This document shows, one piece after another, positions 28,135-34,955 of a stretch of 34,955 bases of DNA. Location of the stretch: positions 1-34,955 of IMG/VR virus record IMGVR_UViG_3300032224_000087; one strand, given 5' to 3'. How positions within the stretch are numbered: position 1 is the stretch's first letter; every line of letters starts with the position of its first letter. Position numbers and translations under genes: made by a program. This stretch comes from a virus. The notes under the pieces were generated by a model. That model was not told where the DNA came from and did not search any database. It saw only the letters and a list, made by a program, of their open reading frames with translations.

Positions 28135-28253
28135 CACAAGAAGATATTATTGCTATATACAAAAAAGTATTTCCAACAGGTTATGAGCCAGTTAGCGTAG
28201 AACGTATGATAAGGTTTGCAAGACTGATAGAGGAAAAAGTTAAGCATGATTAG
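28131..28253 (+). CDS. Small helical protein, 40 aa
   Basis: ATG at 28131 overlaps the preceding stop (ATGA), TAG at 28251-28253 lies within the next gene's start. MTQEDIIAIYKKVFPTGYEP then VSVERMIRFARLIEEKVKHD: two helices, probably a protein-interaction peptide. Small proteins of this pattern are frequent in phage genomes beside regulators. Function unknown. Confidence 0.65.
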   Translation: MTQEDIIAIYKKVFPTGYEPVSVERMIRFARLIEEKVKHD

Positions 28254-28575
28254 TATGGAACGCTTACTATCAATCCTAGATGATTGGAAACTATACATGA
28301 GGTCATCTAACCACAGACTTGGTTATCCTAGCAAGTCATTAGGGATGTCATCTGGAGGCGAGTCTACTACTGACGAATTTGAACACATGGTCAGTGCTAT
28401 GGATAAACAAAATGTAAGAACCATAGACGCAATCATACATAGCCTTGATAAAGGACAGCAAGAAGCCATATACGCTAAATACTTGGGAGCTAAACCTCCA
28501 CTTGCCTTTTATTGGCAATTAGACATGGCATACGACAATTTACTTACCATTAGTTCACGCAGGATAAACGCATAA
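28246..28575 (+). CDS. Q-antiterminator-like late regulator candidate
   Basis: 109 residues (first Met 28246; Met at 28255 also possible). The layout MERLLSILDDWKLYMRSSN, LGYPSKSLGM, then a helical DNA-binding-like part (MVSAMDKQNVRTIDAIIHSL and QQEAIYAKYLGAKPP) resembles Phage_antitermQ proteins. It is placed just before a TATAAT promoter and a terminator that stand in front of all late genes, as for lambda Q. Alternatively a small sigma-like or ArpU-type regulator. Family call by pattern and context only. Confidence 0.6.
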   Translation: MISMERLLSILDDWKLYMRSSNHRLGYPSKSLGMSSGGESTTDEFEHMVSAMDKQNVRTIDAIIHSLDKGQQEAIYAKYLGAKPPLAFYWQLDMAYDNLLTISSRRINA

Positions 28576-28579
28576 TCAC

Positions 28580-28609
28580 TAGACCTAATATAGTGACTTG
28601 TGGTATAAT
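28580..28609 (+). promoter_or_regulatory. Late promoter candidate (TATAAT inside a palindrome)
   Basis: Perfect TATAAT at 28604-28609, with TAGACC (4/6 match to TTGACA) 18 bases upstream at 28580-28585. The -10 box is the centre of TGGTAT-A-ATACCA (28601-28613), a perfect 13-nt palindrome that could be an operator. Transcription would start near 28616 and read into the late genes through the hairpin at 28656. Confidence 0.65.
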
Positions 28610-28655
28610 ACCAGCTATGTGGGCAGAGCCTACCCAAAAAAAACGTAATCCCTCC

Positions 28656-28700
28656 AAAACCCTGCTTATAACTCTCTCCATAAGTGGGGTTTTACTTTTA
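28656..28700 (+). terminator. Strong hairpin terminator in the late leader
   Basis: Arms 28656-28669 and 28680-28693 form a 14-bp stem (two U-G wobbles) with a 10-base loop, running directly into TTTTACTTTTA. It lies about 40 bases downstream of the predicted late start and ends right before the ATG at 28702. It looks like a conditional terminator; it might also hide the translation start of the first late gene. Confidence 0.7.
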
Positions 28701-28701
28701 T

Positions 28702-28866
28702 ATGACAATATCTGTAGCAATATGCACTACCTGTGGCGAAGCATTTGACCGCACAGAGTATTCCCTTTGCAACGATTGCAGATATGACAAGACTTATATC
28801 AAGCTAGACAAAGAACCTATACAGGATAAAGAGCATGGAACAATCATTCAAAACAGAAGTGAGTAA
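28702..28866 (+). CDS. Small zinc-ribbon protein, 54 aa
   Basis: ATG at 28702 lies immediately behind the terminator hairpin; no normal Shine-Dalgarno can be seen. MTISVAICTTCGEAFDRTEY then SLCNDCRYDK: two CxxC pairs (C8/C11, C22/C25) that should hold zinc. As first gene after the late promoter it may act on transcription or translation. It overlaps the next gene by 32 bases. Confidence 0.7.
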   Translation: MTISVAICTTCGEAFDRTEYSLCNDCRYDKTYIKLDKEPIQDKEHGTIIQNRSE

Positions 28867-30704: not shown

Positions 30705-30986
30705 ATGGAAGAAACAACAAATAAAGTCGGTGCACCGCTAGGAAATAAAAACTCTATTAAATCCAATAGGTTATGGGCGGAAACAATTCGTAGAGCTGTA
30801 GTGCAAGATGATGCTCAACGATTAAGACAAATAGCCGAAGCATTGCTTATAAAAGCATCTGAAGGCGATATGACTGCTATTAAAGAGTTAGGTGACAGAT
30901 TAGACGGTAAAGCCTTACAAGAGAATAAAGTAACTGGCGATTCAGATGAACCAGTTATTATTAAGATTGTAACAGGCATTGAGTAA
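30705..30986 (+). CDS. Terminase small subunit candidate, 93 aa
   Basis: From ATG at 30705 (GGAG seven bases upstream; ATG at 30681 gives eight more residues). KVGAPLGNKNSIKSNRLWAE then IRRAVVQDDAQRLRQIAEAL, ASEGDMTAIKELGDRLDGKA: a short basic N-terminus followed by helices, as in phage small terminases or DUF5681-type DNA-binding proteins. It precedes and overlaps the large terminase. It would recognise the packaging start. Confidence 0.7.
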   Translation: MEETTNKVGAPLGNKNSIKSNRLWAETIRRAVVQDDAQRLRQIAEALLIKASEGDMTAIKELGDRLDGKALQENKVTGDSDEPVIIKIVTGIE

Positions 30987-32241
30987 TGTTCTAAATACTG
31001 GGTATGAACCCAGAGAACCACAGAAGTTGATTCACCAAATGGTGAAGGACAACAGGTTCACAGTAGTGGTTGCTCATAGACGTATGGGTAAGACTGTATC
31101 AGCCATAAATCAACTGGTACATTCAGCACTACTGTGTGATAAACCTAGTCCAAGACTAGCTTATATAGCACCTACATACGCACAGTGTAAGCGTATAGCA
31201 TGGGATTACTTGCTAACCTATACTAGACCATTAGGTGCAATAGCAAATATAGCAGAGTTAAGAGTAGACTTCATGGGCAGGCGTATATCTTTATACGGTG
31301 CTGATAACCCAGACTCATTACGAGGTATCTATTTAGACGGTGTTGTGATTGACGAGATTGGGGATATTAACCCTACCATATTTAGTGAAGTCGTTAGACC
31401 TGCATTAGCTGACCGATTAGGTTGGGCAATGTTTATAGGAACGCCTAAAGGAAATAACCACTTTAAAGACTTACGAGATAGAGCAGACAAAGGCAATGAT
31501 AGCTGGAAACTGCTAGAGTTTAAAGCAAGTGATACAAAGTTACTAGACCCACAAGAGTTAGCATCTGCTAGAAATGAAATGGGTGATGACAAGTATCAAC
31601 AAGAATTTGAATGTTCATTTAATGCCGCAGTAGAAGGTTCATACTACGGACAAATGATAAACGATTTAGAAGCCAAGAATCAGATTACTACCATCCCTAG
31701 AGAAACTCTCTCAAAAACGTATTGTGCATGGGACTTGGGTATGTCTGATTCAACAGCTATTTGGGTAGCACAAGTCGTAGGTAAAGAAATAAGACTTGTA
31801 GACTTTTATGAGAATCATGGACAAGGATTAGATACTTATGTTAATTGGCTTCGTGATAATGAATGGAGTGATGCAGTTCAACTTCTACCTCATGACGTGG
31901 TAGTAAGAGAATTAGGCACAGGAAAGTCAAGACAAGAAATGCTTGAAGAAGCAGGGCTAGAGATAACAGTAGTAAAGAAACTACCAGTAGCAGACGGAAT
32001 ACAAGCAGTACGCAGAATATTACCACGCTGCTGGTTTGATAAGAATGTAAAGCAAGGATTAGATGCACTACGTAATTATAGACGTAACTATGATGAAAAG
32101 CGTAATGTATTCTTTGACTCACCTTTGCACGATTGGTGTTCCCATGCTAGTGACGCATTTAGATACCTTGCAGTAGGATTAGATGAGTCTGATAATAGCT
32201 GGGGTCAACCCTTACAAATTAATAATTCATGGATAGTATAA
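30979..32241 (+). CDS. terL: Terminase large subunit (TTG start)
   Basis: 420 residues. ATPase: Walker A AHRRMGKT (32-39), Walker B VVIDEI (122-127), coupling GTPKG (154-158). Nuclease: AWDLG (D252), LPHD (D306) and SHASDAF (D392), the RNase H-like triad. TTG at 30979 is the only start ahead of the first domain; the nearby ATG at 30986 is out of frame. It pumps DNA into the head and cuts it. Overlaps the small-subunit candidate by 8 bases; the portal gene follows after two bases. Confidence 0.93.
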   Translation: MSNVLNTGYEPREPQKLIHQMVKDNRFTVVVAHRRMGKTVSAINQLVHSALLCDKPSPRLAYIAPTYAQCKRIAWDYLLTYTRPLGAIANIAELRVDFMGRRISLYGADNPDSLRGIYLDGVVIDEIGDINPTIFSEVVRPALADRLGWAMFIGTPKGNNHFKDLRDRADKGNDSWKLLEFKASDTKLLDPQELASARNEMGDDKYQQEFECSFNAAVEGSYYGQMINDLEAKNQITTIPRETLSKTYCAWDLGMSDSTAIWVAQVVGKEIRLVDFYENHGQGLDTYVNWLRDNEWSDAVQLLPHDVVVRELGTGKSRQEMLEEAGLEITVVKKLPVADGIQAVRRILPRCWFDKNVKQGLDALRNYRRNYDEKRNVFFDSPLHDWCSHASDAFRYLAVGLDESDNSWGQPLQINNSWIV

Positions 32242-32243
32242 CA

Positions 32244-34337
32244 ATGGCAAATGTAAAAAAATCTGGCTACATAATGGATGAAGGCAAACTTAAAGCCATT
32301 CTGGATTCTGAAATCTGGAGTGCGTTAGGTTATATCCAATCTGAAACTACACATGAAAGACAACAAGCACTTGAGTACTATCTACGCAGACCATATGGCA
32401 ATGAAGTAGAAGGTAAGTCACAGATTGTTACTGGTGAAGTAGCAGAGGCTGTAGACGGTGCATTACCACAACTTATTCGTGTATTCACATCATCTGACAA
32501 CATTGTTGAGTTTAGTCCACAAAGTGAAGGTGACCAAGATTTAGCTGACGGTGCTACCACATATGTCAACCATGTATTCTATAAAGACAATGATGGATTC
32601 CATATCCTTCACAATTGGTTTAAAGACGCACTACTAGAAAAAGTAGGTGTGGTTAAAGTATATTGGGATGATGAAACAAACATCACTAAAGAAGAATATA
32701 AAGGTTTAACCGAAGATGAGCTTGCACTTATCTTACAAGACCAAGAAGTAGAACTAGTATCACACGCAGAAGTAATTAAAGTAGAGCAAATTGTAGACCC
32801 AATCACAGGTTTACAATCTGACCATAACACAGTAACACACAATGTTAAGGTTCGTAAGACAGTACGCAATGGTACAGTTCGTGTAGAGAACATTCCACCA
32901 GAAGAGTTTATCATCTCTAAACGTGCTAGAAATATCCAAGAATCAGGTTTCTGTGCTCACCGTAAGATGCTTACTCGTAGTGAACTTATTTCTATGGGCT
33001 TTGACCCTAAAATCGTAGAAGGTCTTAATACTGGTAACGCACTAGAATATAGCCCAGAAAGAATTGCTCGTTATACTCGTGGTGAACAACCTACTGATAT
33101 GATGTCACAAGACCACTCTATGCAAATCGTAGAGGTATATGAGTGCTATATCAAGGTAGACTATAATGATGACGGTGTAGCAGAACTACGCAAGATTGTA
33201 TACGCATCTAATGAAATTTTAAGTGATGAGGATTGTGATTACATTCCTTTCCATTCTATCTGCCCATTACCAATACCACATAAATTCTTTGGTAACTCAT
33301 TAGCAGACAGAACAATGGACTTGCAATTAATCAAGTCTACAGTAACTCGTCAAATCCTAGACAATATGTACCTAACTAACAATGCTCGTGTATTGGCAGT
33401 AGAAGGTCAAGTAAACTATGATGACTTACTAACATCTACAGCAGGTGGTGTGATTCGTGTTAAAAACCCAGCAGCAGTATCACAGTTAGCTGTGACTTCA
33501 GCAGCAGGTCAATCATTCCCATTACTAGAGTATTTAGACTCTGTACAAGCTAAACGCACAGGTGTTAGCGATATGCAACAAGGTTTAAGTGCAGATGTAT
33601 TACAAAACGCTACAGCAACAGCAGTGGCTACTATGTCTAATGCTGCTAATGGTAAGCTAGAACTTATTGCTCGTATCTTTGCAGAAACAGGTGTCAAATC
33701 ACTATTCCAATCTATCTTTAGATTACTATGTAAGTATCAAGTTAATTCACGCACTCTTATGATTAACAAGAAACCAATGGTATTTAACCCTAGAGAATGG
33801 TCAGAACAATATAGTATCAACATCAATGTAGGTTTAGGTACTGGTTCTCGTGCTGAACAGTTAGCTACTATGCAAATGATTTTAGGTAAACAAGAACAAA
33901 TATTACAAGGTTATGGCTTAAGCAATCCTTTAGTCAACCTTAAACAATACAGAGATACATTGGCTAAATTCATCCACATGGCTGGATTTAAAGATGCTTC
34001 TGGTTTCTTACAAGACATTACACCAGAACAAGCTCAACAATTAGCACAAGCAGACCAACCTAAAGTTGACCCAAGTGTAGAAGCTGCTCAAGAGTTTGCT
34101 AAAGTTGAACGTGAAAAAGCACAGTTAAGAGCCCAAACAGAGATGGCTAAACTTGAGCTACAAAAACAACAAATGGAACTAGACAATGCTCGTAAGCAAT
34201 TAGAGTTACAGATGCAAGAATTTAAGATTCAAGCAGATGCTCAAAATGCTTCAGAGAAAGCTAGGTCTGACTCTATGAAATCAGTGATGGCATCATTAAA
34301 AGATATTAAAGATTTACAAATTCCTAACGGAATGTAA
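32244..34337 (+). CDS. Portal protein
   Basis: A 697-residue protein from ATG at 32244; an ATG at 32229 in the terminase end adds five residues. ALGYIQSETTHERQQALEYY then RPYGNEVEGKSQIVTGEVAE and FKDALLEKVGVVKVYWDD are typical of P22/SU10-like portals, and PIPHKFFGNSLADRTMDLQL with the helical LQSAKRTGVSD-type stem follows. The C-terminus has a long coiled-coil (EFAKVEREKAQLRAQTEMAK). It forms the dodecameric channel at one vertex. It overlaps the next gene by one base. Confidence 0.92.
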   Translation: MANVKKSGYIMDEGKLKAILDSEIWSALGYIQSETTHERQQALEYYLRRPYGNEVEGKSQIVTGEVAEAVDGALPQLIRVFTSSDNIVEFSPQSEGDQDLADGATTYVNHVFYKDNDGFHILHNWFKDALLEKVGVVKVYWDDETNITKEEYKGLTEDELALILQDQEVELVSHAEVIKVEQIVDPITGLQSDHNTVTHNVKVRKTVRNGTVRVENIPPEEFIISKRARNIQESGFCAHRKMLTRSELISMGFDPKIVEGLNTGNALEYSPERIARYTRGEQPTDMMSQDHSMQIVEVYECYIKVDYNDDGVAELRKIVYASNEILSDEDCDYIPFHSICPLPIPHKFFGNSLADRTMDLQLIKSTVTRQILDNMYLTNNARVLAVEGQVNYDDLLTSTAGGVIRVKNPAAVSQLAVTSAAGQSFPLLEYLDSVQAKRTGVSDMQQGLSADVLQNATATAVATMSNAANGKLELIARIFAETGVKSLFQSIFRLLCKYQVNSRTLMINKKPMVFNPREWSEQYSININVGLGTGSRAEQLATMQMILGKQEQILQGYGLSNPLVNLKQYRDTLAKFIHMAGFKDASGFLQDITPEQAQQLAQADQPKVDPSVEAAQEFAKVEREKAQLRAQTEMAKLELQKQQMELDNARKQLELQMQEFKIQADAQNASEKARSDSMKSVMASLKDIKDLQIPNGM

Positions 34338-34564
34338 TGAACACGCAAAACATTAAAAACATTTTAAATGATGATGACTTTAAAGGTGTCTTACAGGGCA
34401 TGATTGATGGTCATATGCAACAAATTATAAACTCTAATGACTCTGATACAGAAATTAGAGAGCAGTCCTATTATAAAATAGCTGCTATAAAAGAATTAAT
34501 CGGCAGTCTTGAATCTATTGCAGCAGGACAAGTAATAGATAAGAACCGATTTAAGATATTGTAG
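34337..34564 (+). CDS. Hypothetical small protein, 75 aa
   Basis: A helical, acidic protein (NIKNILNDDDFKGVLQGMID; later REQSYYKIAAIKELIGSLES) starting one base before the portal stop. Small helical proteins between portal and scaffold are common in podoviruses and may aid portal assembly. No motif recognised. Confidence 0.7.
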   Translation: MNTQNIKNILNDDDFKGVLQGMIDGHMQQIINSNDSDTEIREQSYYKIAAIKELIGSLESIAAGQVIDKNRFKIL

Positions 34565-34583
34565 ATATTTCTACATTTGGTAC

Positions 34584-34598
34584 ACCTCCCATAGAGGT
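34584..34598 (+). promoter_or_regulatory. Small hairpin before the scaffold gene
   Basis: ACCTC (34584-34588) and GAGGT (34594-34598) can pair around a 5-base loop, followed by TAATATAGGAAAAATAAATG. The hairpin lies just upstream of the scaffold ribosome site (AGGA) and could modulate its translation. It has no U-tract, so it is not a terminator. Confidence 0.35.
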
Positions 34599-34614
34599 AA
34601 TATAGGAAAAATAA

Positions 34615-34955
34615 ATGAGTGAAAATACCATGACTCCAGAAGAATCTGGAAGTGGCACGCTTACTGTAAGTCAAGCAGCCAATGCGTTTGAAGGTCTAAT
34701 GGACACCCCAGCTAACTCTTCGGAGCAAAGAGCAGGTGAACAAGAAGCTGAACAAGTATTGGAACAAGAAGCAGAGCCACAACAAGAAGCTGAACAAGTA
34801 GAAGAAGTCGTTGATGACGAAGCTGAAGTACAAGAAGATGACAGTCAAGAAGAAGAGCCTTCATATGTAGTTAAAGCCGCAGGGGAAGAAAAAGAAGTAC
34901 CTCTATCTGAATTGATTAAAGGTTATCAGCTTGGTGCTGACTATACGAAAAAAAC
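34615..34955 (+). CDS. Capsid scaffolding protein, N-terminal part (continues at 1)
   Basis: ATG at 34615, AGGA nine bases upstream, runs off the window and continues in frame from position 124 after the overlap, ending at 784. The N-terminus (MSENTMTPEESGSGTLTVSQ, then NAFEGLMDTP) is followed by a very acidic Glu/Gln region, then a conserved-looking SYVVKAAGEEKEVPLSELIK. Total 333 residues. It lies between portal and capsid. Confidence 0.85.
   Translation, partial: MSENTMTPEESGSGTLTVSQAANAFEGLMDTPANSSEQRAGEQEAEQVLEQEAEPQQEAEQVEEVVDDEAEVQEDDSQEEEPSYVVKAAGEEKEVPLSELIKGYQLGADYTKK
34833..34955. repeat. Terminal overlap, right copy (circular contig)
   Basis: Identical to 1-123. See the left copy; it shows that the window is one full circle of about 34,832 bp with 123 bases repeated. 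Confidence 0.95.

Follow-up and report, generated by a model that had tools for sequence, protein, structure and literature searches.

A conserved promoter, transcribed element and terminator behind a Q-like gene form a probable antitermination switch in small aquatic phages

The Q proteins of phage 21 and lambda, as well as AlpA of Pseudomonas aeruginosa and GafZ of the Caulobacter GTA, use a DNA loading site that lies between the -35 and -10 elements of a promoter. The terminators under the control of AlpA begin 26 and 54 nt after the transcription start, and the fold of AlpA resembles that of phage 21 Q (21Q), which is composed of a helix, a flexible ring-forming loop and sigma-region-4-like helices in this order (PMC6606751). 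The Q21 family corresponds to PF06530 in Pfam (PMC7171158). In SE10, a P22-like phage, the Q21-type gene is followed within about 90 nt by TTGACA, TGAGCA-N2-TGAGCA, which is the phage 21 Q binding element (QBE), and a terminator. The leader of ST64T, another P22-like phage whose Q is annotated as 'similar to bacteriophage 21 Q', is similar to that of SE10. These two phages indicate that a compact switch is already known and is normal in podoviruses that have no polymerase of their own. A preliminary description of the locus studied here had considered its layout uncommon for a small podovirus that lacks an RNA polymerase of its own; this view is wrong, since ST64T and SE10 share the layout and have equally short leaders.

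The window, which is the whole stretch of 34,955 nt that was analysed, is AT-rich and comes from a small aquatic phage. Its translated ends overlap (EDDSQEEEPSYVVKAAGEEKEVPLSELIKGYQLGADYTKK, about 1-120 versus about 34835-34955), which gives it the appearance of a complete genome that is circular or circularly permuted. The early rightward operon ends with the Q-like gene, upstream of which it contains genes for a DnaB-type helicase, NinB-like and YbcO-like proteins, and a Ren/O-like winged-helix protein, and the leftward genes probably encode recombination proteins, judging from the annotation of relatives. Throughout the region 3' of the leader, the genes are on the + strand and encode a small Cys-rich protein, a DUF5856/phrog_858 protein, terminase, portal, capsid and other virion proteins (Table 1). 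The window thus has the order of Q gene, promoter, terminator and late operon by which any lambdoid Q switch is recognised. No integrase was found in the window genome, and the gene order is a lambdoid one in a phage without signs of lysogeny. A PF00940 search for an RNA polymerase gave no match in the window and none in the control genomes, and the absence of a polymerase of its own is read only from the list of open reading frames (ORFs). A hairpin formed by AGCCCTAGCAATAGGGCT and TTCTCTTT directly behind the capsid gene (1754-1779) is likely the terminator of that gene within the late operon.

Table 1. Features of the late-switch region and of the late block in the window.
Feature	Position	Strand	Details
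Q-like antiterminator gene (putative), 109 aa	28246..28575	+	helix 1, conserved flexible loop LGYPSKSLGMSSGGEST, four sigma-region-4-like helices (predicted)
Inverted repeat TCACTA-N9-TAGTGA	28576-28581/28591-28596	.	over -35/spacer; in the window and closest relatives only
Late promoter (predicted)	28580..28609	+	weak -35 TAGACC 28580-28585, 18-bp spacer, extended -10 TGGTATAAT 28601-28609
Conserved transcribed element GGG-N9-CCC-N8-CGTA (GGGCAGAGCCTACCCAAAAAAAACGTA)	28621..28647	+	short hairpin/inverted repeat; from relatives and IMG/VR recovery
Intrinsic terminator, proposed conditional stop	28656..28700	+	14-bp stem 28656-28669/28680-28693, loop with CTCTCTCC, U-rich tail
First late-operon gene, small Cys-rich zinc-finger-like protein	28702..28866	+	ATG 2 bases past U-tract
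Start of late block: terminase large subunit, portal, onward over the circular junction to capsid and tail genes	30979..34955	+	

The ORF, the perfect TATAAT and the 14-bp hairpin with a U-tract were all present as the preliminary description had reported them. The TATAAT (28604-28609) is made into an extended -10 by the preceding TGG (28601-28603), and, even with a weak -35 (TAGACC, 4/6), this is the best promoter match behind the Q-like gene; the predicted transcription start is at about 28616. The resulting leader is ~85 nt long and is predicted to form a small hairpin (28619-28633) and the 14-bp hairpin (28656-28693), whose stem runs into the U-rich tail TTTTACTTTT. The predicted folding energy of the leader was -22.7 kcal/mol as compared with -13.95 ± 2.98 kcal/mol for dinucleotide shuffles, of which 2 out of 200 were as good (z -2.94). 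Promoter-like and terminator-like sites of a generic kind were as frequent in the window as in shuffled sequences, and neither the promoter nor the terminator alone therefore means much. The combination of an extended -10 with a strong hairpin/T-tract 40-130 nt downstream was found at one site on the + strand, which is the one described here, and at one site on the - strand, and it did not occur in six shuffled genomes. No Rfam family reached its cut-off at the leader; GP20-b was rejected as a candidate (14.9 bits against a cut-off of 36.2, E 0.6) because its match paired across the promoter and did not recur in a relative. At 28680-28704, the sole purine-rich stretch of the first late gene, GTGGGG, sits in the terminator stem, so that the ribosome site of this gene might also be masked by the hairpin.

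Relatives of the Q-like protein are abundant in IMG/VR, where 249 candidates were obtained with the window protein as a query and 367 with an alignment. Downstream of the Q stop codon, these relatives nearly always have an extended -10, a gap of 9-11 nt, the element GGR-N9-YCC-N8-CGTA and a terminator, and the distance from the Q stop codon to the -10 is conserved at 22-23 or 29-32 nt. The strict pattern occurred in 202 of the collected loci, where it was represented by 34 distinct 31-mers, and it was absent from the complementary strand of these 1.78 Mb. When the loci were restricted to the clades of the window and of MW202481, which are the two main Q clades, and duplicates were removed, 135 testable loci remained. 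The strict unit of promoter, element and terminator was present in 110 of them (102 adjoining Q and 8 behind an inserted gene). With few exceptions, the remaining loci carried one-letter or register variants of it. Conservation of the unit in more than 100 relatives shows that the pairing of promoter and terminator is not due to chance. The unit is kept among phages whose Q proteins are only about 30% identical to that of the window, and the terminator stems of relatives differ in sequence with their pairing kept. Together with the lambdoid setting (upstream, genes of the NinB-like and YbcO-like types; downstream, those for terminase, portal and capsid), this conservation strongly supports the order of Q, promoter and conditional terminator with the late genes behind it that had been proposed earlier. 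A promoter that stands directly before a terminator with no gene between them also has the look of a gene for a small regulatory RNA, such as lambda 6S, whose function would be unrelated to late control. However, both main clades have the unit located after the Q-like gene and before the late operon, and stems that vary freely in sequence while keeping their pairing fit a stop signal better; this explanation is thus extremely improbable. In clade 1, the terminator loop CTCTCTCC (28670-28679 in the window) is nearly invariant.

The element is located at about +6 to +32. Information content at its free positions was 1.76 bits in the loop and 1.60 bits in the N8 segment, as compared with 0.75 bits in the promoter spacer and 0.79 bits in the stretch after the element, when calculated on the most varied clade (40 sequences, effective number 19) with the fixed positions of the search pattern excluded. 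The conserved part is the transcribed hairpin or inverted repeat, and the promoter spacer is not conserved. The preliminary description had drawn attention to a palindrome at the -10; this palindrome (GGTATAATACC, 28602-28612) indeed spans the -10, but it is not the conserved part of the locus, which is the transcribed element that had gone unnoticed. Neither of the two palindromes in the promoter region is conserved in most relatives, and the one at the -10 was rejected as a conserved operator for this reason. The TGAGCA direct-repeat QBE was absent from the promoters of the window group, while the SE10 control was found. Direct repeats were also rejected as a QBE, the best 6-mer repeats in 55 promoters being at shuffle level.

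The arms of the element pair in one of three registers, with exchange of G-C for A-U and some U-G pairs. Folded alone, the elements had a mean energy of -5.9 kcal/mol and were better than shuffles at a median of 0.013, with the exception of some clade 2 forms. The U-G pairs and compensatory changes lean towards an element that is read as RNA, and its small size and place lean towards a pause or loading site. In Q21 switches, a -10-like sequence in the initial transcribed region causes a sigma-dependent pause. Candidates for such a sequence are TGGGATAGT in clade 2 and CAGAGT or CATACT in some others, but it could not be assigned in all clades, and the commonest clade 1 form, GGACAACTCC, is without the consensus T. 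In clade 2, CTCTCC runs into CGTA. A conserved transcribed hairpin with compensatory G-C/A-U changes and some U-G changes would also be expected if the leader RNA itself antiterminates through an effect of its hairpin in cis on RNA polymerase, either independently of any factor or with a host factor, for which HK022 put RNA is the precedent (PMC9378689). The element, however, comprises about 20 nt versus 73 nt in two stems in put, and it is nearly always found behind a Q-family gene, which a self-sufficient RNA would not need. It is thus very unlikely that the leader acts by itself, and we regard the element as a candidate site at which an antiterminator protein is loaded or utilised.

Scans for the element were also performed without reference to Q, using a core suggested by the leaders of EBPR podovirus (GGGCAGAGGTGCGCCCAAAGAGA) and of contig L006 (GGGCAGAGTGTTGCCCAAAGAAA). 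When the whole of IMG/VR was searched for GGGCAGAGNNNNGCCCAAAGARA, seven contigs were obtained, all of which had the promoter, the element and the terminator, and in six of which these were behind a Q-family gene. Three of the seven were already known types. In three contigs (L286, L287 and L292), the upstream ORF is a Q-like homologue that is 28-70% identical to that of the window, with promoter and terminator present. In L289 (12203-12600, - strand), the promoter, element and terminator are behind an ORF without detectable similarity to the Q family, which possibly represents another antiterminator family that uses the same element. When 257 Gb of cellular genomes were scanned for GGGCAGAGNNNNGCCCAAAGARA, the four matches had no such context and were about as many as expected by chance, and a looser scan with GGGCANNNNNNNGCCCAAAGARA gave 43 contigs that were mostly chance matches. 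The contigs of the looser scan that had both a promoter and a terminator were relatives or the GC-rich L314, in which the promoter, element and terminator are behind a divergent Q-like ORF whose likeness was judged by eye only.

In one group, a Q-like protein is found without adjacency to the unit or the element, and the link between Q and the element is therefore not universal. In Methylophilales phage Venkman (L210), the opposite strand encodes the late genes, and the Q-like gene does not adjoin a unit; a position weight matrix of the element scored at best 10.4 on this genome versus up to 14.1 on shuffled sequences, and the element was not detected there. The Q-like gene of Venkman-type phages (L210, L169-L195) is followed by assorted genes.

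Some loci carry inserts. In L005 (5323-6099), Q is separated from the promoter by a gene read as a DNA methyltransferase, behind which the unit is located; similar inserts at this place were seen in L008, L013, L026, L027, L029, L030, L042 and L078. The final ~15 nt of Q (about GGATAAACGCATAA) recur at the 3' end of the inserted gene, as would result from recombination at that boundary. In L054 (5380-5990), an insert with copies of TAATAACGTA on its two sides interrupts the leader. It contains a gene of the HNH/AP2 endonuclease-like type and an int-alpA RNA (RF02996, 44 bits), and this locus has a degenerate first hairpin.

Among annotated phages, only three carry a relative of the Q-like protein: MW202481 (61% identity, labelled 'phage antitermination protein Q'), Venkman (gp37, 46% identity, labelled 'antitermination-like') and EBPR podovirus 1 (gp41, 35% identity to the window protein). 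No characterisation of these three proteins was found in the literature, and the protein family is uncharacterised. The window protein had no match at all in Pfam, and the models of lambda Q (PF03589) and Q82 (PF06323) matched neither this protein nor its relatives. The protein is thus not of the lambda Q type, and the nearest known type is phage 21 Q, with sub-threshold matches only. For PF06530, the best relative scored 20.2 bits against the Pfam cut-off of 26 bits (best E among relatives 6e-4), while the control QuuD scored 179 bits; sigma-70 region 4 was touched, also below threshold, by 10 of 22 family members. Alignment of profiles with hhalign gave a probability of 15.7% for Q21, which is unusable, a sequence search of the PDB returned spurious matches only, and a protein search of genome contigs yielded no Q-family relative. 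Since no match to a characterised protein is significant alone, the matches are treated as likeness and not as membership.

Two AlphaFold2 models, built from 21 and 32 sequences (pLDDT 78 and 80), predict a helix at residues 4-21, a disordered but strongly conserved loop (LGYPSKSLGMSSGGEST) and four further helices. In Foldseek searches of the PDB, 21Q in the Q-engaged complex ranked first for model 1 (TM 0.52, E 1.6), while sigma region 4 domains led the main matches for model 2, with 21Q in ninth place; the E values were 1.6-4.1, none of which is statistically significant. The structure prediction of the 109-residue protein that had been suggested earlier as a check thus recovered the helix order of 21Q, and 21Q itself as the top match of model 1, but at E > 1. 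As modelled, the window protein resembles phage 21 Q, below significance, in the order of its helices and in its sigma-region-4-like C-terminal half. It looks like a Q protein in its action, with a likeness to 21Q and with membership of PF06530 not established. Another role to be considered is that of a transcription activator of the late promoter, with the hairpin merely ending the early operon. Its best PHROG match, phrog_248 (E 0.006), is labelled transcriptional activator, the sigma-region-4-like domain could contact DNA at the -35, and terminators between early and late operons are common. However, the terminator is downstream of the late promoter in every clade, where it would stop late transcripts too, while a terminator of the early operon would be expected upstream of that promoter. 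Moreover, the second-clade promoter (TTGACA, a spacer of about 17, TGnTATAAT) is near consensus and should need no activator. An activator role is therefore unlikely.

We consider, with a probability of roughly 0.8, that a Q-type processive antitermination switch controls the late genes. Transcription by host RNA polymerase would begin at the extended -10 promoter that directly follows the Q-like gene; in the early phase of infection, it would end about 85 nt on at the intrinsic terminator, leaving a short leader RNA. Once accumulated, the Q-like protein would load onto the polymerase near the promoter, most probably at the element past the start site, and the loaded polymerase would pass the leader terminator and later ones to transcribe the whole late operon. 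The sequences establish which components are present, in what order they stand and that they are conserved together; activity of the promoter and terminator in vivo, the antiterminator function of the protein and its loading at the transcribed element are inferred. The late switch is real, widely conserved and ordinary in plan, and its cis element is not in Rfam. It is conceivable, at somewhat less than even odds, that the proteins form a separate, undescribed Q-type family that is widespread in aquatic phages and whose loading site is not a QBE in the spacer but a transcribed hairpin or inverted repeat (GGR-N9-YCC-N8-CGTA or GGGC-AGAGTnnn-GCCC-AAAGAAA) at about +6 to +32. If this is true, a promoter spacer that drifts while a transcribed element is kept would represent another way to load a processive antiterminator, and the element would provide a short sequence signature for locating late switches in uncultured phages.

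Among the annotated phages, EBPR podovirus 1 and MW202481 have the unit of promoter, element and terminator in variant form, while GGR-N9-YCC-N8-CGTA was absent from the six canonical Q regions that were checked. The Q-pR'-tR' region of lambda is like the window in its order of Q, promoter, leader, terminator and late genes, but lambda Q (PF03589) differs in having no sequence match to the window protein, and the lambda leader is about 200 nt long as compared with about 85 nt in the window. AlpA and GafZ are likewise DNA-binding antiterminators that are loaded at a promoter before terminators; however, their binding elements lie between the -35 and -10, the proteins are different, and they control host or GTA genes and not a lytic late operon. 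The switches of the phage 21 Q/PF06530 type share with the window the position of Q as the last gene of a nin-type early operon, a promoter at its stop codon, and a short leader with a terminator ahead of the late genes, and phage 21 Q itself is, like the predicted window protein, small, with a first helix, a flexible loop and sigma-region-4-like helices.
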